Part shown: piece after piece, positions 28,281 through 46,398 of the stretch
Layout: every line of letters begins with the position of its first letter
How positions within the stretch are numbered: position 1 is the stretch's first letter
From: Phragmitibacter flavus
GTDB lineage: Bacteria; Verrucomicrobiota; Verrucomicrobiia; Verrucomicrobiales; Verrucomicrobiaceae
Direction of reading: 5' to 3'
Length of the DNA stretch: 64,000 nt
Assembly (NCBI RefSeq): GCF_005780165.1
Contig: NZ_VAUV01000002.1
Location: forward strand, 1-64,000
The notes under the pieces: generated by a model
What the model was told of the DNA's origin: nothing
Databases searched by the model: none
Seen by the model: the letters and a program-made list of their open reading frames with translations, nothing else
Position numbers and translations under genes: made by a program

Positions 28281-28314
28281 GTCGGATATGTCTGATTGAC
28301 TGACGAAATTAAAC

Positions 28315-28327
28315 GCAATTAAATTGC
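28315..28327. promoter_or_regulatory. Candidate metalloregulator operator, site 1 (GCAA-N5-TTGC)
   Basis: GCAATT-A-AATTGC is a perfect 13-bp palindrome 64 bp upstream of the bL31 type B start codon. A TTGACT that could serve as a -35 element begins at 28338. The same 13-bp layout recurs at 28369, 33659, 33718 and 37404, all upstream of genes that are typical of zinc limitation. Zur is the natural candidate protein; this is inference. Confidence 0.6.
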
Positions 28328-28368
28328 AATATAAGAATTGACTTTTGCGGGGTTGGTTTGAATTTGTT

Positions 28369-28381
28369 GCAAGCTACATGC
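28369..28381. promoter_or_regulatory. Candidate metalloregulator operator, site 2 (GCAA-N5-ATGC)
   Basis: GCAA-GCTAC-ATGC lies 54 bp downstream of site 1 and ends 10 bp before the bL31 start codon. It differs from the perfect dyad by one base of the right arm. The pair spacing resembles that of the two sites at 33659 and 33718 (59 bp). Confidence 0.45.
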
Positions 28382-28391
28382 GTTTACAATC

Positions 28392-28679
28392 ATGAAAAAA
28401 GACATCCATCCTGTAAGTTATCCGGTTGTATTCATCGACATCACCTGCGGGGCTCGATTCGTCACGCGTTCGACGATGAAAAGCGACAAAGTTGAGTTGA
28501 TCGACGGGGTGGAGCATTTTGTGCATGCCATCAGTGTTTCTGCGGAGTCGCATCCGTTCTACACGGGCAAAAGCACGTTCGTTGATACGGAGGGGCGGAT
28601 TGACAAATTCACCAAACGTTTTGGTGACAGTGCATTGCGTCGTGCGGGCAAACCCAAGTTGGAAAAGCTGGGCAGCTGA
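28392..28679 (+). CDS. rpmE2: Ribosomal protein bL31, type B
   Basis: The 95-residue protein is the type B form of bL31: MKKDIHPVSYPVVFIDITCG, then the inserted stretch VDTEGRIDKFTKRFG. It lacks the CxxC zinc motif of type A; a single Cys remains in ITCGARF. Type B forms replace the zinc-binding form under zinc shortage and are usual members of Zur regulons, freeing zinc from ribosomes. It opens a five-gene operon and is preceded by two candidate operators. Confidence 0.93.
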   Translation: MKKDIHPVSYPVVFIDITCGARFVTRSTMKSDKVELIDGVEHFVHAISVSAESHPFYTGKSTFVDTEGRIDKFTKRFGDSALRRAGKPKLEKLGS

Positions 28680-28792
28680 TGCATCGAGCGGTTTCCCGGA
28701 GGATCAATTTTGTTCCAGTGCCTTTGTTTTGAATGCATGGGGAATCTCTGCATCACGGTCAGTCTGAGTTCGCTTTGGGAGCAATACTTGAT

Positions 28793-29932
28793 ATGAAAAT
28801 CACGCTCATCACCGGCTTTCTTGGAGCGGGGAAGACGACATTTTTGAAGCGTCTGTTGCGTGAACAGGCTTTGGCGAACCGGTTTGGGGTGATCGTGAAT
28901 GACCTGAGCGAGTTGGAGGTGGATGGTGAATTGTTGCGCATCGGGCATGCGGTGTCTGAAGAGGCGGGGACGCTGGTGAGTTTGTTTGATGGGTCCATTT
29001 CCGGGGAGCGTCGCGCGGATTTCTCCCAGGCACTTGCAAGCATGCGCGAAGCGAAGATGGAGCATGTGCTGGTGGAAACTTCTGGCGGTTCGCATCCGCA
29101 AGCGGTGATTGACGAGCTGCTTTCCTGCCGTGGTGCCACGCTGCATGCCGTGGCGACGCTGGTGGATGCGCGTGCGTTGTTGCACGATTATGACGGGGGC
29201 GTGGGACTGATCCGTCAGCTTGCCGACAACGAGCAAAACGATCTGCGCACGGCGGAAAACCTGCTGGCGGATCAACTTCGCGCGGCCAGTGTCATCATTG
29301 TGACCAAGCTGGACATGGTGCCGGAAGATGCGTTGCCGATGATTTTTCGAACGCTGCAAGTCTTGAATCCCGGGGCACAACTGGCAGCCTGCGCCTATGG
29401 ACGTCTGGATGCGTCGGTATTGCTGGATGCACCGCCGTATTCACGCAACGAGGCGACGCCGTCGTCCGCCATGGCGAAGTTTCATGACATTGGTTCCACG
29501 GTGATTCGCGATTCACGACCGCTTCATCCGCAACGCTTTTTTGAGCAGTATCAGCAACGACTTGGGCTGGGGCTGTTCCGTAGCAAAGGTTTCATCTGGC
29601 TGGCGAGCAGACCGGACCAGGTGCTTCTCTGGAATCAGGCGGGAGGTGCAATGGGGTTGGAATTTCTCGGGATCTGGCGGGCGCACATTCTTGCGACGGA
29701 CGGTCGTTTGTTGCCGGAAGAAATCGCCCATTTGCAAGAGAAACTCGCAGGTGCGCATCCATTGTTCGGGGACCGGGGGTGTGAGATTACGCTGATCGGA
29801 CAAGCGCGTGACCGGGAGATTTTTGCCAGGGAGATGGAGGCGTGTTTCTGCACGGAAGATGAAATTGAAGACTGGCAACGGGGGCGGGAATTCGTTGATC
29901 CGTGGCCCAAAAATCTGCGCAAGCTGGATTGA
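28793..29932 (+). CDS. COG0523 GTPase lacking the CxCC motif
   Basis: The 379-residue protein is a CobW-like GTPase: Walker A GFLGAGKTTF near residue 8, the ETSGGSHP motif, IIVTKLD for guanine binding, and a C-terminal CobW_C-like domain with FRSKGFIWLASRPDQVLLW. At the place of the metal-binding GCxCC it reads EEAGTLVSLFDGSIS, with no Cys. Family members in zinc-responsive operons are zinc chaperones or insertases. I chose the ATG at 28793. It lies 113 bp after bL31 and 35 bp before the oxidoreductase gene. Confidence 0.88.
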   Translation: MKITLITGFLGAGKTTFLKRLLREQALANRFGVIVNDLSELEVDGELLRIGHAVSEEAGTLVSLFDGSISGERRADFSQALASMREAKMEHVLVETSGGSHPQAVIDELLSCRGATLHAVATLVDARALLHDYDGGVGLIRQLADNEQNDLRTAENLLADQLRAASVIIVTKLDMVPEDALPMIFRTLQVLNPGAQLAACAYGRLDASVLLDAPPYSRNEATPSSAMAKFHDIGSTVIRDSRPLHPQRFFEQYQQRLGLGLFRSKGFIWLASRPDQVLLWNQAGGAMGLEFLGIWRAHILATDGRLLPEEIAHLQEKLAGAHPLFGDRGCEITLIGQARDREIFAREMEACFCTEDEIEDWQRGREFVDPWPKNLRKLD

Positions 29933-29967
29933 TCAGGGGTGGAGCTTTGTTGGAATTTTTTTATTTT

Positions 29968-31155
29968 ATGGATCAGACCAAAACACTGGAGGTTGTCATT
30001 GTCGGCGCAGGTGCGGCGGGTTTGGGATGCGCGGTGGCGTTGAGGGATTGTGGGGTGAAGAAGCTGTTGGTGCTGGAGCGGGATGGCGTGGGAAGTTCGT
30101 TTCGAAAGTGGCCCAAACAAATGCGTTTGATCACGCCGAGTTTTTACAGCAATCCGTTTAAACAAACGGATCTGAATGCGATCACGCCGCAATCGTCGCT
30201 GGCGGATTTTGTTCACAAGGAGCATCCTAGTGGGGAGGATTACGCCAACTATCTGCGGGCATGCGTGGGGCATTATCAGGTGCCGGTGGAGGTGGGCGTT
30301 GAAGTGTTGGCGTTGACCCCGCATCGGCAGGGGTGGAGTTTGATGACGAATCGGGGGGAGTTGCAGGCACGGTTTGTGATCTGGGCGGCGGGTGAGTTCA
30401 GCCAGCCCCATGATGGTGGCATTCGCGGTGGCGAGCATTGCCTTCACAATTCGCAGGTTAAAGACTGGAGCAAGCTGGAGGGGGACACGTTTACTTTGGT
30501 AGGTGGTTATGAGAGCGGCATCGATGCGGCCATTCATCTCGCGTGGCGGGGCAAACAGGTGAATGTGTTGAGCAGGGGCGAGCCTTGGCATGACGATGAT
30601 CCTGATCCGAGCCGCAGCCTGAGTCCTTTCACGCGGGACCGGTTGCGCGAGGCGTTGGAAGATGCACCGGGGACCATCCGCTTTTACAAGAATGCGGTGA
30701 TTACGGAAGTGCGGCACGATCATGGCGGATGGCGTTTGCTGGATGATGCGGGCAATGTCTTTGATTCAGTCACGCAGCCGATTCTCTGCACCGGGTTTCA
30801 CAAGGCGCTGGCACCGGTGAAACATCTGTTTGCGGAGCATGACGGGCAGATGGTGTTTAGTGAAGACGCGGATGAAAGCACCTTGCATGAGGGGTTGTTT
30901 TACAGTGGTCCTTCGCTGAGCCACCGGCAGAGTTTGTTTTGTTTTATCTACAAATTCCGCTCGCGGTTTGGCATCATTGCCCGTGCCATCGCGGAGCGTT
31001 TGGGCCTGCCTTGGGAGGAGCCTCTTCAGGCTTGGCGCGAGCATGGGTTCATGGTGGATGACCTGAGTTGCTGCACGGACTGCCAATGTGCGGTGAACGG
31101 AGAAAATGACGAGATTGCGGAGGCGGTGGAATTTGCCGGAGCGGGAGAGAAATGA
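29968..31155 (+). CDS. FAD-dependent pyridine nucleotide oxidoreductase
   Basis: The 395-residue protein has an N-terminal FAD site (VVIVGAGAAGLGCAVALRD), the FxxxxxK-type stretch SSFRKWPKQMRLITPSFYS seen in flavin monooxygenases, and a NAD(P)-like motif TFTLVGGYESGIDAAIHLA. Near the C-terminus it carries DDLSCCTDCQCAVNGE, a cluster of four Cys that could bind metal. The substrate is not apparent. The last codon overlaps the start of the next gene (ATGA), so translation is coupled within the bL31 operon. Confidence 0.82.
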   Translation: MDQTKTLEVVIVGAGAAGLGCAVALRDCGVKKLLVLERDGVGSSFRKWPKQMRLITPSFYSNPFKQTDLNAITPQSSLADFVHKEHPSGEDYANYLRACVGHYQVPVEVGVEVLALTPHRQGWSLMTNRGELQARFVIWAAGEFSQPHDGGIRGGEHCLHNSQVKDWSKLEGDTFTLVGGYESGIDAAIHLAWRGKQVNVLSRGEPWHDDDPDPSRSLSPFTRDRLREALEDAPGTIRFYKNAVITEVRHDHGGWRLLDDAGNVFDSVTQPILCTGFHKALAPVKHLFAEHDGQMVFSEDADESTLHEGLFYSGPSLSHRQSLFCFIYKFRSRFGIIARAIAERLGLPWEEPLQAWREHGFMVDDLSCCTDCQCAVNGENDEIAEAVEFAGAGEK

Positions 31156-31835
31156 GCGAGATGGTGGCGAATGATCGTGAGGTGGCGCGACTGTTTCACC
31201 GGTTGAGCGATCTGGAGGATTGTCTTTATCTGCAACTCTATTACTGGGGAAGGGATGTGATGCACGCGCACGGGAACCAGTTGGTGACGCATGGGTTTGA
31301 GCGAATCGCGAAGAAGACGAAGGAGGGCACCAGTCGTTACCGGATCGAACTGGGGGATGGATTGATTGAGCTGCACGGCTGGTGTTTGGGCTGGTATCGT
31401 GAAGGTCAGCCAGGATTTGTGTTTGTGCGTGGCCGGCATCGTTTGTTCCTTTGGGATTCGCCAGCGCCACCGCAGCCGGAGTGTGTTGCCAGGGAGAGTC
31501 TGCGTGCTCCGGTGTCTGCGGAGGACTGGTCGTTGCTGGCGTCAATGATGCAGAACTTTGTCCATTGGATGCTGGGCTACGAAAGCTGGGTGGAGGCGCA
31601 GCATGGTGGTGGCTACCGTTCGAGCATTTTTCGTGAGTATGACAAGCTGCCCAATGCCATGCACTGGCTACCCCCTGAGGTGCAGCGCGAATGGTTGGAG
31701 TTGTTTCTTCACAATCCGCTGACGGTGCCTGCGGCGAGGCGTTTCTTGCGGGACAAAATGCGGAGGGTTGTTGAACCGGCGAGGATCGGTTGCGGCTGGA
31801 ACTCCGGCAGTTCCAGATTGACCAAACATTCATGA
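31152..31835 (+). CDS. Conserved-looking protein of unknown function in the bL31/FeoB-like operon
   Basis: I do not recognise this 227-residue protein. It is probably cytoplasmic: there is no signal peptide or membrane helix. It is rich in Trp, Tyr and His (DVMHAHGNQLVTHGFERI, ELHGWCLGWYREGQPGFVFV) and ends in a basic segment. It overlaps both neighbours by 4 bp, which implies a tight functional tie to the oxidoreductase and the FeoB-like transporter. A role as a membrane-associated or binding partner of either is only a guess. Confidence 0.75.
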   Translation: MSEMVANDREVARLFHRLSDLEDCLYLQLYYWGRDVMHAHGNQLVTHGFERIAKKTKEGTSRYRIELGDGLIELHGWCLGWYREGQPGFVFVRGRHRLFLWDSPAPPQPECVARESLRAPVSAEDWSLLASMMQNFVHWMLGYESWVEAQHGGGYRSSIFREYDKLPNAMHWLPPEVQREWLELFLHNPLTVPAARRFLRDKMRRVVEPARIGCGWNSGSSRLTKHS

Positions 31836-33475
31836 AGACGACTGACACTTCCACCATCGTGCTGGCAGGCCTTGAGTCGGCGGGCAAAAGCGCGCTGTTT
31901 CGCGGACTCACCGGACATGCTGCCGGCGATGAGGCGAATTTTCGGGGGTCGACGGTGGTGTGTCGAAAGTGTCGTGTCACGGGTTGTGCCTGCGATGTGG
32001 TGGACACCCCGGGAATACGGGCGAAGTCCGATGCCGCCACCACCCAACTGGCGCTGAACGCGACGGGGGAGGCGGACGTGGTGTTGCTGGTGGCCCGCAG
32101 CACGGATGCCAGCAGTGAAATCGAGATTTTGCTGAAGGAACTGGATCTGAAGCAGAAGCGCAGCGCGCTTGCCATCACCTTTCTCGACAAAGCCCCTGCG
32201 GAGATCGAAGCGTTGGCCGCCCACTATCGTGAAGCGCTGGAAATTCCCGTGGTGCTGGTCAATTCCCGCACGCTGGATGCGACCTCGCGCGAGGCGGTTT
32301 TGCAGGCCATGGCCCAGGCGTCGCCGGTGAATGGTGGTCGCGCGTTGGAGTTCGCCCCACCCGTCATGGCTCGGGTGAGACCTCAGACCACGCTGTTCGA
32401 GCAGCGGTTGTGGGGACCATGGTTGTCGCTGCTGGCCATGGCGATGATGTTTGCGTTGCCGGTGTATGCGGCCTACTGGTTTGCCAGTTGGGCGCAACCA
32501 TTGCTGGATGAGCGGTTGATTTCTCCGATGAAGGAGGCGTTCTCGTGGCTGCCGTCGTTGCCGCAAGCTTTGCTGACCGGAGGTTATGGAGTCATTACTT
32601 TGGGATGGTATTCCTTTCTGTGGGCTTTCCCCGTGGTGGTTTTGCTGGCTTTGAGCGTTGCCATTGCTGAGGAGACCGGGTTGAAAGATCGCATCACGGC
32701 TGCGTTGGATCCATGGTTGCGGCGGGTGGGCCTGGACGGTCGCGATTTGATCCCCGTTCTGATGGGATTCGGCTGCAATGTGGTGGCGGTTTTTCAAAGC
32801 CGCTCCTGCTCGTCATGCACCCGCAAATCCTGCGTGTCGATGATCGCCTTTGGAAGTGCCTGCAGTTATCAGATTGGGGCTTCATTGAGCATCTTCGCGG
32901 CATCTGGCCATCCAGGGTTGTTTGTTCCGTATCTATTCATGCTGATTGTGGTCGGTGCCCTGCACACCCGTTTTTGGCATGGTGGATTGTCGTCAACTCA
33001 TGCGCAACCTTTGCACGAGCGCGCGTTTTTGCAGGTGCCTTCCGCTCGCGCGGTCCGCTGGCGGGTGAAGGCATCGCTCAAGCAATTCCTGCTGCAAGCA
33101 ATGCCGGTATTTTTGTTGATCTGTATCATCGCTGCCTTGCTGGAGTATCTGGGTGTGATGGCCGTTCTTGAAGTCGGACTGGCCCCGTTGATGACCTGGT
33201 TAAAGCTCCCGGTGGAAGCGGCGGGTGCCATCCTGTTTTCGGTTCTTCGCAAGGATGGTTTGCTGACCCTCAACAGCAATGAGGGCACCTTGCTCGTTTC
33301 AATGGGTGAAGCACAAATTTTTCTGGTGGTGTGGCTTGCTTCGACGTTGACGGCCTGCCTGGTGACGCTGTGGACGATTAAAAAGGAATTGGGCTGGATG
33401 ACGGCATTCAAGTTGGCAGGAAGACAGGCCGCAACGTCGGCGATGGCCAGTGTCGTGATGGTGATTTTCCTGTGA
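31832..33475 (+). CDS. FeoB-like GTPase-coupled metal transporter, divergent
   Basis: The 547-residue protein joins a small G domain (Walker A GLESAGKS at 13-20, DTPG near 60) to a membrane part with two Gate/nucleoside-recognition domains. The FeoB signature GFGCNV is present, and the second motif reads FGSACSYQIGAS. Between them FeoB has a conserved TRTIES segment; here it is SRSCSSCTRKSC, three Cys in nine residues. The NxxD guanine motif reads ITFLDKA, without the Asn. It is much shorter than E. coli FeoB (773). Substrate zinc or another divalent metal is inferred from the operon. Confidence 0.85.
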   Translation: MKTTDTSTIVLAGLESAGKSALFRGLTGHAAGDEANFRGSTVVCRKCRVTGCACDVVDTPGIRAKSDAATTQLALNATGEADVVLLVARSTDASSEIEILLKELDLKQKRSALAITFLDKAPAEIEALAAHYREALEIPVVLVNSRTLDATSREAVLQAMAQASPVNGGRALEFAPPVMARVRPQTTLFEQRLWGPWLSLLAMAMMFALPVYAAYWFASWAQPLLDERLISPMKEAFSWLPSLPQALLTGGYGVITLGWYSFLWAFPVVVLLALSVAIAEETGLKDRITAALDPWLRRVGLDGRDLIPVLMGFGCNVVAVFQSRSCSSCTRKSCVSMIAFGSACSYQIGASLSIFAASGHPGLFVPYLFMLIVVGALHTRFWHGGLSSTHAQPLHERAFLQVPSARAVRWRVKASLKQFLLQAMPVFLLICIIAALLEYLGVMAVLEVGLAPLMTWLKLPVEAAGAILFSVLRKDGLLTLNSNEGTLLVSMGEAQIFLVVWLASTLTACLVTLWTIKKELGWMTAFKLAGRQAATSAMASVVMVIFL

Positions 33476-33531
33476 ACGATGATTCCCAGGATAGATTTCA
33501 TCGTGACTGGCAAACAGCATTCTCCACATTG

Positions 33532-33571
33532 ATCCGGCTTCAATTGTTTATGCCGAAGCTCTGAGCCGGAT
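33532..33571 (+). terminator. Hairpin after the FeoB-like gene
   Basis: ATCCGGCT (33532-33539) pairs with AGCCGGAT (33564-33571) 57 bp after the stop codon. The loop is long, with a further partial GCTTC/GAAGC pairing inside, and no T run follows, so termination is uncertain. Confidence 0.3.
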
Positions 33572-33658
33572 TGAAAAATCGGCACCATCAAGCCGGTTGG
33601 AAAGGGAGGCGATGCCCGGCGGCAGTTCGAAGAACTGCCCAGGTTTCCAAATAGTAAT

Positions 33659-33671
33659 GCAAATAAAATGC
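33659..33671. promoter_or_regulatory. Candidate metalloregulator operator, site 3 (GCAA-N5-ATGC)
   Basis: GCAA-ATAAA-ATGC is flanked by TAAT on the left and AATA on the right. It lies 45 bp before the pseudopilin start. It has one mismatch to the perfect dyad seen at 28315. Confidence 0.5.
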
Positions 33672-33715
33672 AATAGCAGTTTGACGGGTGGCGCAATTGA
33701 CGATAGACCGTAATA

Positions 33716-34438
33716 ATGCAAATGACTTGCTTTAATAAGCGCGGGTTTACCCTGCTGGAACTTTTGGTGGTGATAGGGATCATTGCCCTGTTGGGATCGA
33801 TGGGTTTCGCCGCAACCCAAGGCATATTGGTCAAATCCAGGCAGGCTAAATGTGCCAGCAATTTGCGCCAGATTGGGGTCGCGGTCATTGGTTACACCCA
33901 GGAAAACGCTGGAAATTTCCCCGTGTCGACTCACGGGCTTGATGTCACCACTTACGGGAACGCGTGGATCTACTCGCTTGCGCCCTATTTGTCTGATGTG
34001 GAGGAAGTGCGCATTTGTCCGGCCGATCCCAAGTCAGCCGAACGGTTGGAGGCCAAGGGCACCAGTTACATCATGAACAGCTTCCTGACGGTTCCCAAGC
34101 TCAGTCCGTTTGGTGAGCCGATGGGAGGTTTCACCAATTTGAACGGGCTTTCATCTATGACGAATACGCCCATGGCGTTCATCATCAATTTCTCCAAGGG
34201 TGTGGGGGTGACCAACGATCACACGCATTCCGAAGCGTGGACAAACTGGGGCAGGGTGGTTGAGGACATTCAACCCGATGCATTCCGCCTTGGATCAGAG
34301 CGTCCTGATCGTTCTTCTGGCTCGTCCAACTACCTGTTTGTTGATGGTCATGTGGAAAACATCAAGGCGGAAGTCATCCAAGGATGGATTTCAAGCGGCT
34401 ATAATTTTGCCGATCCAGCATCCAAAACAAAATCCTGA
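33716..34438 (+). CDS. Pseudopilin-like protein with prepilin leader (H-X9-DG type)
   Basis: The 240-residue protein starts with a type IV prepilin leader, NKRG then FTLLELLVVIGIIALLGSMG, cleaved after Gly. The C-terminal part has SSNYLFVDGHVENIKAE, like the DG-containing tails of the large pseudopilin families of Verrucomicrobia and Planctomycetes. Such proteins are exported through type II secretion-like machines; one is encoded at 47170-52634. The start could be 33716 or 33722. It is 5 bp from the choice-of-anchor-M gene, so they form an operon. A candidate operator overlaps its start. Confidence 0.85.
   Translation: MQMTCFNKRGFTLLELLVVIGIIALLGSMGFAATQGILVKSRQAKCASNLRQIGVAVIGYTQENAGNFPVSTHGLDVTTYGNAWIYSLAPYLSDVEEVRICPADPKSAERLEAKGTSYIMNSFLTVPKLSPFGEPMGGFTNLNGLSSMTNTPMAFIINFSKGVGVTNDHTHSEAWTNWGRVVEDIQPDAFRLGSERPDRSSGSSNYLFVDGHVENIKAEVIQGWISSGYNFADPASKTKS
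33718..33730. promoter_or_regulatory. Candidate metalloregulator operator, site 4 (GCAA-N5-TTGC)
   Basis: GCAA-ATGAC-TTGC is flanked on the left by TAAT, as at site 3. It overlaps the first codons of the pseudopilin gene, so its role as an operator would mean a roadblock or a later start codon. Without the other four sites it could pass as chance. Confidence 0.4.
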
Positions 34439-34443
34439 GTAAA

Positions 34444-35259
34444 TTGTTTATGAATACGAGTGTTCGATTTTTTAGCGTGGTGGCCGCGATGTCGGCATGG
34501 GTGACGGTGTCTCCCGCTTTTGTCCACGGTGTGGTGATCGCTGGTCCGGGGCATATGGACATCAACATGAACATTGATGAGGATGGCCAATGGACCTTTG
34601 CGCTCGATCACGATGGAGCAGGCAGCGGATTTGAAGGCGGTGGCGGGAGCGGCGCCTTCACAAGAGAAGCGGATGTTGAAACGGTGATCTACATCCCGGG
34701 ATCAAAAAGCCTGAATCGACCTTCCGGAAGCACATGGGATTTTTTTGGTGTGGGGGCGGGACAGCCCTTGTGGATCTTTGGACAGAATCAGGATCAAAGT
34801 TTCGTGTGGCCCGGTTTAAATACGGAAGAAACGACGCCGGGATTAATCAGCACCTGGCGGCCTGATCATCCTCTTCTCACCGCAGCGAATTCATACATGG
34901 AGCTGCGGTTAACTGACATGCAGTATTATGGTGAGGGGACGGCCAATCATTTTTCCATGTGGATCGCCGGAGCATTTGGCAGTTCCAACGTCTGGATGTC
35001 GACCGCCAATGGAATTGATTCCAACGACGCCTTCTTTATGCTTCCAGGCGGACACTCTCATATGAACTGGGGCTTTACCAGTCAGGGCATTTATGACCTA
35101 ACGTTTGTTGCCCGCACTATGCTTGATGGGGAGATGGTGACCAGTGATCCCTTTACCCTGCGATTCGGTATAAACGCCACCAGTATTGTGCCCGAACCAG
35201 GTCGCGTATTGCTGTTGGTGGCGGGTTGCGCCTTGATGTTTTTGAGAAGACGCAGGTGA
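34444..35259 (+). CDS. Choice-of-anchor-M-like surface protein with PEP-CTERM tail
   Basis: The 271-residue protein has a signal peptide (FFSVVAAMSAWVTVSPAF) and a PEP-CTERM-like end (IVPEPGRVLLLVAGCALMFL then RRRR). The body resembles the choice-of-anchor M/actinobacterial surface-anchored domain: GHMDINMNIDEDGQWTFAL at the front, and GGHSHMNWGFTSQGIYDLTF with paired His near the end. In actinobacteria such proteins are encoded with zinc/manganese-type ABC transporters. With the neighbouring zinc-type genes, a cell-surface metal-binding role is a fair inference. Confidence 0.72.
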   Translation: MFMNTSVRFFSVVAAMSAWVTVSPAFVHGVVIAGPGHMDINMNIDEDGQWTFALDHDGAGSGFEGGGGSGAFTREADVETVIYIPGSKSLNRPSGSTWDFFGVGAGQPLWIFGQNQDQSFVWPGLNTEETTPGLISTWRPDHPLLTAANSYMELRLTDMQYYGEGTANHFSMWIAGAFGSSNVWMSTANGIDSNDAFFMLPGGHSHMNWGFTSQGIYDLTFVARTMLDGEMVTSDPFTLRFGINATSIVPEPGRVLLLVAGCALMFLRRRR

Positions 35260-35427
35260 TCGATTAGTCTTGAGTCAAAGTGCAACCAAATCAAACACGG
35301 TGGCGAATGCTGTCCATGACTGACGGGGGACAGTGGGGTTGAATTATCCTTCAATCATCTGCGCTGATGTGAAGTGGCCCTTCTCGGTCCATGGCTGGGA
35401 AGCGTTAGTCGATCGCTCAACAAAAAA

Positions 35428-35453
35428 AGTGGCTGGCAGATTTGCCAGCCACT
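35428..35453 (-). terminator. Terminator of the Tsx-like porin gene
   Basis: An 11-bp perfect stem (AGTGGCTGGCA with TGCCAGCCACT) around GATT is followed on the minus strand by seven T. It lies 44 bp after the stop codon of the porin gene. Confidence 0.93.
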
Positions 35454-35496
35454 GATGGGTCTATCCGATACATTAAGAGGAATGGAATGCTTTAGC

Positions 35497-36390
35497 TTAG
35501 AAGAAGTAAGTGATGAGGGCTTGGGGAACGAAGTCGTCCTGGCCTTTGACGCCGAATTCGTTGATCCAGATGTCCACTTCAACCCCGGCGTAGAGTTTGC
35601 CTTTGGGGAGGCCGAGAGGTTTGCCAATGTCCATGATGAGCTGGGGGCTGCTGTGGAAGGTTTCAACCGTGTAATCTTCCGATCCAGCGAAGTCCGCGAA
35701 ACCAAGGAATTTGAAGTCGCAGCTGCCGATGCTGAAGGGGATGATCCATACATAAGTGAGCTGCCAGGTGGAGCCATCAAGATCGAGGTCATCGCGCCAG
35801 TAGAGGTTGAGGCTGGAGACGAGGAACCCTGGCATGTTGAAATCGACGGCGACACCGTGCAGTTGACGGGTCTGGGTGTAGTCGATGTCGGTGCCGAAGG
35901 CCTGGTTGATGTTCTTCAATGAGCCAGCGCGACCGAATTCAAAGGTGCCGGAGTAGATGAAGAAGTCCTTGATGAATCCTTTGCCGGGTTCCTTGCCGGT
36001 GAGTTTGCTGAGGCTCAGGCGCGGGCTGGCTTCTCCGTAGACATCAAAGCCAGTTTTGGGTTCGAGGCCGGTGTCATAGGTGGTGAGGTTCATGAAGTCG
36101 ACAAACAGAAAAAAATCACCGAACTTGTTGTCGTTGAAATGCTCCAGAGTGATCAGGTCGCGTTCCTCAGAGGCGCTGAATGGCGTGTCCCAATTGAAAC
36201 CGTAGAGATACCAAAGGCTGGTGGAGGTAAAGTTGAAGAATCCGCTGCTTTTGGTTTCGGTGGTGGCGACACCTTTGCCGCTCGGGGTTTCACCGGCGTG
36301 GGTTGTTGGTGGGGCGATCATCAGCAGTTGCAGGGTCATGCAGGCGATGGCGATGAGGCCGGTATTTTTGGTGGGGCTGAATGTTCTCAT
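35497..36390 (-). CDS. Tsx-like outer membrane channel protein
   Basis: The 297-residue protein has a signal peptide (NTGLIAIACMTLQLLMIAPP, cleaved near THAGE) and the alternating pattern of a 12-strand outer membrane barrel ending in aromatic YFF. Segments such as NKFGDFFLFVDFMNL and YGEASPRLSLSKLTG resemble the Tsx/nucleoside-specific channel family (DUF5020-type). The start at 36390 (MRTFSP) follows GGAGTTGAC poorly; an upstream in-frame extension is not coding. It is divergent from msrB. Confidence 0.8.
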   Translation of the reverse strand: MRTFSPTKNTGLIAIACMTLQLLMIAPPTTHAGETPSGKGVATTETKSSGFFNFTSTSLWYLYGFNWDTPFSASEERDLITLEHFNDNKFGDFFLFVDFMNLTTYDTGLEPKTGFDVYGEASPRLSLSKLTGKEPGKGFIKDFFIYSGTFEFGRAGSLKNINQAFGTDIDYTQTRQLHGVAVDFNMPGFLVSSLNLYWRDDLDLDGSTWQLTYVWIIPFSIGSCDFKFLGFADFAGSEDYTVETFHSSPQLIMDIGKPLGLPKGKLYAGVEVDIWINEFGVKGQDDFVPQALITYFF

Positions 36391-36464
36391 GGGAGTTGAC
36401 GGGTTGGTGGGAGGATTGATGAGGTTGATGATTGAGGAGGTGTTTGGTCGATGTGTTCGCTGAA

Positions 36465-36477
36465 GCATTGCCCATGC
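36465..36477. promoter_or_regulatory. Dyad GCAT-N5-ATGC between porin and msrB
   Basis: GCAT-TGCCC-ATGC has the same arm length and spacing as the GCAA-N5-TTGC sites but a different fourth base in each arm. It lies between the divergent porin and msrB genes. It may be a variant site of the same regulator or chance. Confidence 0.25.
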
Positions 36478-36580
36478 CACACCTCCATTGAGTAAATAAT
36501 CCGAAGGTGGTAGGCGGGCGTTTGCTGCGGATTGCATTATTTGTGTGAGCAAGACAACGGATTGGCGGCGTATTGGTCTA

Positions 36581-37261
36581 ATGATGTCCATGAGATCCGT
36601 TTTTCGCTTCCCCTTGTGCCATTGCTGCGTGGCGGCAATGCTGGCCACGTCCATCGGCCTTCATGCTGAAGAAAATTCATCGAAGAGCGCTCCAGAGACC
36701 AACACTCCATCCAAAACTGTGAACACCGATCCCGCATCCGCCCAGGCCACTGCTGAAGGAAAAAAAGCCAAACCGTTGCCGACGGATGAGGAATTGAAGA
36801 AGACGCTGACTCCGCTTCAGTATGCGGTGACGAGGGAGAATGGGACGGAGCGTCCGTTCACGGAATTGTATGACACCTGGAAAAAAGAGGGCGACGGCAT
36901 TTACGTGGATTTGATTTCGGGAGCGCCGTTGTTTTCGTCAAAAGACAAGTTTGATGCGAAGTGTGGCTGGCCGGCTTTCAGCAAACCCATCACCGATAAT
37001 GAGATTAAAGAATTGAAAGATGTGTCCCACGGGATGACCAGGGTGGAAGTGCGTTCCGAGTCGGGCGACGCGCATCTCGGCCATGTATTTGATGACGGTC
37101 CCAAAGAGCTGGGGGGACTTCGTTATTGCATCAACGCGGCGGCAATGAGGTTTGTGCCCAAGGAAAAGATGAAGGAGGCGGGATACGGAAATCTGCTGGT
37201 GAAGATCTTTGGGGACGAGAACCCGTCCGACACAACGGCGGCGAAGGCAGAAGCCAAGTGA
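36581..37261 (+). CDS. msrB: Exported peptide-methionine (R)-S-oxide reductase MsrB, zinc-less form
   Basis: The 226-residue protein has a signal peptide region ([20 protein letters not shown]) and a Lys/Pro/Thr-rich linker to residue 65. The MsrB domain follows: [40 protein letters not shown] and the catalytic [11 protein letters not shown]. Both CxxC pairs that bind zinc in E. coli MsrB are missing (DLISG and SESGD instead). It repairs oxidised Met in exported proteins. I prefer the ATG at 36581 to a GTG at 36545. Confidence 0.92.
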
Positions 37262-37403
37262 TTTCTGCGGGTGATGATGGTGCTGCCGATGACCAAGCTT
37301 TGGTGCCGGGAAGCGTGATTAGGGATTGTCGGGCGTTTTTTTCGTCTTGCACAGTGATGATTCACCGTTAATATCGGCCCCTCTTTTTCCGTTCATGATT
37401 GGA

Positions 37404-37416
37404 GCAATCCAAATGC
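37404..37416. promoter_or_regulatory. Candidate metalloregulator operator, site 5 (GCAA-N5-ATGC)
   Basis: GCAA-TCCAA-ATGC lies 48 bp upstream of the DksA-like start codon, at the head of the dksA-bL33-bS18 group. It has the same one-base difference from the perfect dyad as the sites at 28369 and 33659. Confidence 0.45.
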
Positions 37417-46284: not shown

Positions 46285-46398
46285 TGAGAGCAGAGGAATA
46301 ATCTAAATTCGACAATAATTCAGATGGTGTATGCGAAGCAAGATCTTTGCATTGGTCTCGATTGACAAAACCAAGCATTGTCTTCACAATGAACGAAT

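Follow-up and report, generated by a model that had tools for sequence, protein, structure and literature searches.

A palindromic dyad ahead of zinc-type genes in Phragmitibacter flavus as the probable operator of a Zur-like regulator in Verrucomicrobiota

Operators of zinc-uptake regulators (Zur, Fur family) have been reported as palindromes of a 7-1-7 kind (PMC6103462), and a predicted ZUR box of Desulfovibrio, ATGCAACNNNGTTGCAT, was reported before two znuABC-zur operons (PMC545781). At the protein level, the Zur of Synechococcus (SynZur; PDB 7NE9) has the sensor ligands Asp77, His79, Cys95 and His115 (PMC9337993). A 2024 paper placed a palindrome before zepA of Luteolibacter yonseiensis (PMC10957091), and beyond this one palindrome no described zinc regulon of Verrucomicrobiota was found among the open-licence papers listed. 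The available portions of the review (PMC6103462) and of a paper on COG0523 proteins (PMC2770081) contain no Verrucomicrobiota box, and Verrucomicrobia lay outside the Zur-site searches covered in the available portion of PMC3087516. The window analysed here is a stretch of 64,000 nucleotides (C2:1-64000) from the 5.91-Mb genome of Phragmitibacter flavus (G000). Dyads of the form TAAYGCAAN5TTGCRTTA in this window are, judged from sequence, very probably the operator of a Zur. The sites themselves, their conservation at most targets, a genome-wide link to zinc genes and a link to one clade of Fur proteins were all observed.

A preliminary description of the window had listed five 13-bp dyads. 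All five were present where they had been placed, with perfect arms at 28315 and 33718, an ATGC variant at 28369, 33659 and 37404, and spacings of 54 and 59 bp within the two pairs. The loose pattern behind that list gave 12 strand-matches (9 places) in the window as compared to 5.74 expected (SD 2.71), a count attained in 1 of 100 shuffles of the window; taken alone, this pattern is only weakly significant. A 21-bp symmetrised profile was derived from 53 sites, all from other genomes and none from that of P. flavus. These training sites had been chosen, within loci that carry zinc-island or zinc genes, for the perfection of their cores; the arms of the profile are therefore invariant, and it gives no measure of how frequently imperfect cores function. 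It is a palindrome of the 7-1-7 kind with T/A-rich flanks and describes a fuller operator of approximately 21 bp (i.e. TAAYGCAAN5TTGCRTTA), longer than the 13 bp first described. The five sites were placed by the profile as follows.

28314-28328, unstranded: operator A, CGCAATTAAATTGCA; profile score 32.7, rank 1
28368-28382, unstranded: operator B, TGCAAGCTACATGCG, weaker, 9 bases ahead of the rpmE2 start codon; score 14.0, rank 4
33658-33672, unstranded: operator C, TGCAAATAAAATGCA; score 28.4, rank 2
33717-33731, unstranded: operator D, TGCAAATGACTTGCT, overlapping the start codon and codons 1-5 (MQMTC) of the pseudopilin; score 27.3, rank 3
37404-37416, unstranded: dyad of the preliminary description ahead of the DksA-like/bL33/bS18 genes, rejected here; score -3.6, rank 48

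Sixty Markov resamplings of the window produced no score as high as those of operators A, C and D. For a site scoring as operator B, the expectation was 0.17 per 64 kb and, with local composition, 0.011 in the rpmE2 promoter region, while 0.62 sites such as that at 37403 were expected in the DksA spacer with local composition. Four of the five sites exceed chance and the fifth (37404) does not. A perfect palindrome at 46338, absent from the earlier list, scored 4.8 (rank 9) and was rejected.

Operators A and B lie ahead of rpmE2, and operators C and D ahead of a pseudopilin gene. The first five genes listed below are spaced tightly enough for one transcription unit and probably form a five-gene unit starting with rpmE2.

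28392-28679, + strand: rpmE2, ribosomal protein bL31 type B without zinc cysteines (NCBIfam NF002462 and Pfam PF01197 above cut-off)
28733-29932, + strand: COG0523 (CobW/ZigA-like) GTPase (PF02492 and PF07683 above cut-off; ZigA equivalog below cut-off)
29902-31155, + strand: FAD/NAD(P) oxidoreductase (Pyr_redox_3; PF13738, 1.5e-87)
31152-31835, + strand: uncharacterised protein without a Pfam or NCBIfam match
31790-33475, + strand: FeoB-like GTPase/Gate membrane transporter with orthologues in other genomes (PF07670 and PF02421 above cut-off)
33716-34438, + strand: pseudopilin (N-methyl and DUF1559; PF07963 and PF07596 above cut-off)
34444-35259, + strand: choice-of-anchor M surface protein with a PEP-CTERM tail (NF038134, TIGR03769 and TIGR02595 above cut-off)

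The distribution of the operator was examined in a phylum search of 387 genomes with TAAYGCAAN5TTGCR and a reversed control, in which a symmetric site counts twice in strand-matches. Site and control gave 16 versus 4 strand-matches in the family of P. flavus, 17 versus 6 elsewhere in the order and 38 versus 14 elsewhere in the class. The excess was confined to this class (71 versus 24, as compared to 72 versus 81 in other classes; Fisher 1.2e-5), also when each place was counted once (59 versus 24 and 71 versus 81; Fisher 2.4e-4). All class-level loci, forming 52 site clusters, were then scored for a homologue (E 1e-9) starting within 500 bp downstream, with 31 clusters of other classes, from among the matches listed (30 loci), as controls. 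Queries were taken only from the window, the P. flavus genome and the genomes with FeoB-like loci; a count of 35/52 was obtained when some queries came from the scanned loci themselves, and the figures used are 26/52 and 13/52. A zinc-island or zinc-gene homologue was found downstream in 26 of the 52 class clusters (15 genera) and in 1 of the 31 controls listed (Fisher 3e-6), the single positive control being a COG0523 gene. Restriction to COG0523, ZnuA and HisI, which had been linked to zinc beforehand, retained 13/52 clusters from 10 genera (Fisher 0.008), while the other half of the 26 had homologues of the pseudopilin, an outer-membrane-type histidine-rich protein, the FAD oxidoreductase, the anchor-M protein, the FeoB-like transporter or the 31152-31835 protein. 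Both this association and the top ranks in the window give good support to the earlier proposal of a Zur-like operator for zinc genes of Verrucomicrobiota.

Within the P. flavus genome, the count covered exact matches to YGCAAN5TTGCR. The 31 matches as compared to 22 for the reversed control are unconvincing by themselves. A simple gene caller made for this analysis assigned 24 of the 31 to coding and 7 to non-coding sequence, but the four top-scoring matches (32.7, 26.6, 25.0 and 19.7) are all non-coding and all at zinc genes. One precedes rpmE2, two (C15:58029 and 58055) precede a second COG0523 gene whose CXCC motif is intact, and one (C5:339486) precedes an operon encoding the outer-membrane-type histidine-rich protein together with a binding protein of the ZnuA family. 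The C15 place emerged from the pattern search and the C5 place was known before the pattern was chosen. Another site of this genome (L008) scored 17.2 with no recognised zinc gene nearby and may be coding. The alternative pattern TGCAAN5TTGCA was rejected as it was near chance in this genome (8 versus 5 for the control) and misses the actual sites, with their C/G variants or one changed base.

Conservation was assessed at loci of the FeoB-like gene taken from 14 genomes. The same dyad in its extended form was present ahead of zinc-type genes in several of these loci, and in 13 of the 14 the FeoB-like gene was accompanied by a homologue of the FAD oxidoreductase (in one case 7.5 kb away). In Verrucomicrobium strains BvORR034 and BvORR106 (L078 and L115), a pair of sites 59 bp apart precedes the orthologous pseudopilin gene, in the same position as that of the window pair. 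Additional sites separate the FAD gene from a divergently oriented operon for the histidine-rich outer-membrane protein and znuA/znuC/znuB-like genes (the znu genes being read by eye). In G319 (L081:2079-6431), an operator stands before a unit comprising a HisI paralogue, a pair of COG0523 genes and a cysteinyl-tRNA synthetase paralogue (the last by eye).

The genome of P. flavus encodes four Fur-family proteins. The likely regulator is the Fur encoded at C7:142690-143127, because proteins of this type co-occur with the strict pattern and members of its clade are encoded next to operators. The C7 Fur grouped in a clade of moderate support (93/83) that includes Fur genes directly beside an operator in G415, G365 and G288. 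Among the genomes of the order, the strict pattern was present in 13 of 20 with a C7-type Zur and in 1 of 24 without (Fisher 1.7e-5). The best PDB match of the C7 Fur was 7NE9 (3.4e-11), and residues equivalent to His79, Cys95 and His115 as well as the structural Cys4 site were kept in 23/23 C7-type proteins (i.e. that of P. flavus and 22 close orthologues). In the remaining three Fur proteins of P. flavus, no more than one of these three sensor residues is kept. G415 (L087:10274-10732) and G365 (L088:6207-6674) each encode, at zinc-island operators, a Zur-like Fur paralogue that has lost His79, Cys95 and His115 and kept the four structural cysteines; both genomes also encode a relative retaining those ligands.

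An unlikely alternative is that the sites serve another metalloregulator of P. flavus responding to iron or manganese. Candidates are present, namely a Fur at C5:268674, a suf-linked Fur at C3:225489, a PerR-like protein by katG and an MntR-like protein by a manganese-type transporter, and G000, G001, G319 and G313 each encode Fur proteins of the C5, C3 and C7 types. FeoB normally carries iron, and a FeoB-like gene lies within the rpmE2 unit. Nevertheless, the targets of known role are zinc genes and not iron or manganese genes, and the mntABC-like locus of P. flavus (L043) had no site among the best scores of this genome. Moreover, the C7 clade is the one that contains the operator-adjacent Fur genes of G415, G365 and G288, and the other Fur proteins of P. 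flavus are without the SynZur cysteine and second histidine.

Several observations weigh against a Zur operator controlled by the C7 Fur. The SynZur ligand Asp77 is an aspartate in only 3/23 C7-type proteins. Seven of the 20 genomes of the order with a C7-type Zur had no strict match, and the 24 Zur-less genomes with which they were compared consist of 23 from one genus and one other and are not independent. No site scoring >14 was found in front of the C7-type zur gene in 23 loci, the 14.5 site of L248 being inside the gene, and autoregulation of zur was rejected on this ground. Half of the positive clusters rest on families whose zinc role is itself inferred. The other 26/52 class clusters lacked a homologue of this kind under the strict criterion; some of them are probably chance, and several precede TonB-receptor-, anchor-M- or ZnuA-like proteins (by eye, with homology among the scanned loci). 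As the control loci belong to other classes, homologues there could have gone unrecognised through divergence. Finally, the box at rpmE2 had no counterpart at the type B bL31 genes of 13 relatives in the order, where the preceding 300 bp (170 bp for one locus) gave a best profile score of 6.6. Conservation before orthologous genes extends to the site pair at the pseudopilin of two Verrucomicrobium strains but not to rpmE2. The two outcomes that the preliminary description had named as refuting the operator were for the most part not observed. Each of these 13 relatives had one bL31 match only, and their type B bL31 is therefore probably a housekeeping protein. The operator is real and some members of the predicted regulon are unusual.

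From these comparisons we infer the identity of the regulator, zinc-dependent binding and repression. A zinc-bound Zur dimer would occupy one or two operators overlapping the promoter or the start codon and so block expression; when zinc is scarce, Zur would leave the operators. Release would permit production of the zinc-free L31, COG0523 GTPases and FeoB-like transporter, together with the outer-membrane histidine-rich protein with ZnuA and the pseudopilin/anchor-M surface pair. At rpmE2, operator A overlies a predicted -10 hexamer TAAATT (28320-28325), the sole promoter-like one found there in a consensus scan (promoter-like hexamers 28296-28325), and would be positioned to block the promoter, with operator B 9 bases upstream of the start codon. 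For the pseudopilin gene, where no consensus promoter was found, the putative block would involve the second operator, which includes the start codon. Specifically, ATGCAAATGACTTGC in operator D translates as Met-Gln-Met-Thr-Cys, the N-terminus of the pseudopilin. Both candidate start methionines ahead of the prepilin cleavage motif sit inside operator D; therefore, the overlap is independent of which start is used.

This identity of operator and start of the pseudopilin coding sequence recurs elsewhere, with an MQxxC start in L078, L115, L181 and L144 (G001, BvORR106, G412 and G288), and the same MQxxC/operator overlap was present before a TonB-receptor-like gene in G161. The neighbouring anchor-M protein was considered as a ZepA, for which a motif H-X2-9-H-F/Y-H has been described (PMC10957091); this assignment was rejected as the 34444-35259 translation contains neither H-F-H nor H-Y-H. 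A tentative twofold proposal, on which our doubts outweigh our belief, is that the ligand-less Zur paralogue of G415 and G365 may be a zinc-blind partner or antagonist of the true Zur and that the pseudopilin/anchor-M pair may be a core Zur-controlled zinc-capture surface system in Verrucomicrobiae, with an operator within the first five pseudopilin codons.

The rpmE2 unit has further features of note. A zinc-type bL31 paralogue with four cysteines (CxC...CxxC) is encoded at C12:27483, making the window gene a second copy as expected for a zinc-starvation bL31. A CXCC metal motif is a stated feature of COG0523 proteins (PMC2770081); the window GTPase has GSISG at the expected place, while the second COG0523 gene (C15) retains CICC. 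Homologues of the 31152-31835 protein lie directly 3' of operators in L210, L214 and L216.

Farther downstream in the window are genes for MsrB, a DksA-like protein, bL33, bS18 and folE2. The preliminary description had proposed three target units, of which two, with four of the five sites, are retained; the dyad at 37404 and the DksA/bL33/bS18 unit are not. It is highly improbable that all five sites are functional and that DksA, bL33 and bS18 are also zinc-regulated through a degenerate site. The core pattern is present at 37404 and the DksA-like protein, bL33 and bS18 read as being without zinc cysteines, but the score of this site and the expectation of 0.62 such sites in the spacer speak against a function. 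In addition, bL33 and bS18 had one match each genome-wide, both in the window and with no zinc-type second copy; as these are the only copies found, starvation-only expression is expected to be lethal. Table 2 of PMC3087516 gives only zinc-free forms of L33 and S18 for Verrucomicrobiae, and zinc-free L33 and S18 are therefore the rule in this group as far as that table reaches. The candidacy of folE2 as a zinc-starvation paralogue was likewise rejected: a type I GTP cyclohydrolase FolE (PF01227) was not found in this genome, leaving folE2 as the sole GTP cyclohydrolase I gene seen. Thus bL33, bS18 and folE2 are housekeeping genes that need no zinc rather than starvation paralogues, the assignment of the DksA/bL33/bS18 unit following from the lack of another genomic copy of bL33 and bS18. 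That the sites in general are chance palindromes in AT-rich spacers would fit the loose pattern at approximately twice its expectation and the modest excess of the strict core (31 versus 22), but conservation, profile scores and the class-wide zinc-gene link render this the least credible account, refuted for 28314, 33658 and 33717 and holding for 37404.

With a Zur operator as the preferred reading, Verrucomicrobiota gain a predicted zinc regulon with its operator, a candidate for the regulator and a set of target genes. Functionally blank genes, i.e. those for the 31152 protein, the FAD enzyme, the FeoB-like transporter and the pseudopilin/anchor-M pair, would be placed in zinc starvation. 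The box may not be confined to Verrucomicrobiota: in a metagenome-assembled genome (MAG) of Sedimentisphaerales (Planctomycetota), a membrane-protein gene is preceded by a perfect TGCAACTTAGTTGCA (L118:738; score 21.6), with a Fur gene and a pseudopilin/anchor-M set nearby. The gene order of L117 (pseudopilin, extra protein, anchor-M, Fur) resembles that of L118, and its label as an Alphaproteobacteria MAG may be wrong.

The operator was finally compared with described Zur systems. The Bacillus-type and E. coli-type Zur boxes (consensus TAAATCGTAATNATTACGATTTA and TRWNAYRWTATAWYRTNWCA, as given in the available sources) are also inverted repeats but differ in their arms. Before the Luteolibacter zepA, a perfect palindrome stands ahead of a gene for a PEP-CTERM zinc protein of the Planctomycetes-Verrucomicrobia-Chlamydiae (PVC) group, a likeness that holds at the level of this description. 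SynZur and the C7 Fur share three sensor ligands and the Cys4 site, with Asp77 replaced mostly by Gly in the C7 type, and this likeness is at the protein level only. The earlier statement that the dyad matches no known Zur box was contradicted by the predicted Desulfovibrio box as given in the available portion of PMC545781. The inner C...G of that box is not conserved in the profile (position 9: A20 C4 G12 T17, n = 53, symmetrised), and the extended TAA/TTA flanks are unlike it; the comparison is one of box letters. Desulfovibrio-type arms were found in the profile, with mostly A at position 3 and T33/C20 at position 4 followed by GCAA. Both boxes have the arms ATGCAA/TTGCAT with the same N5 spacing between GCAA and TTGC, and both stand before zinc-uptake genes.

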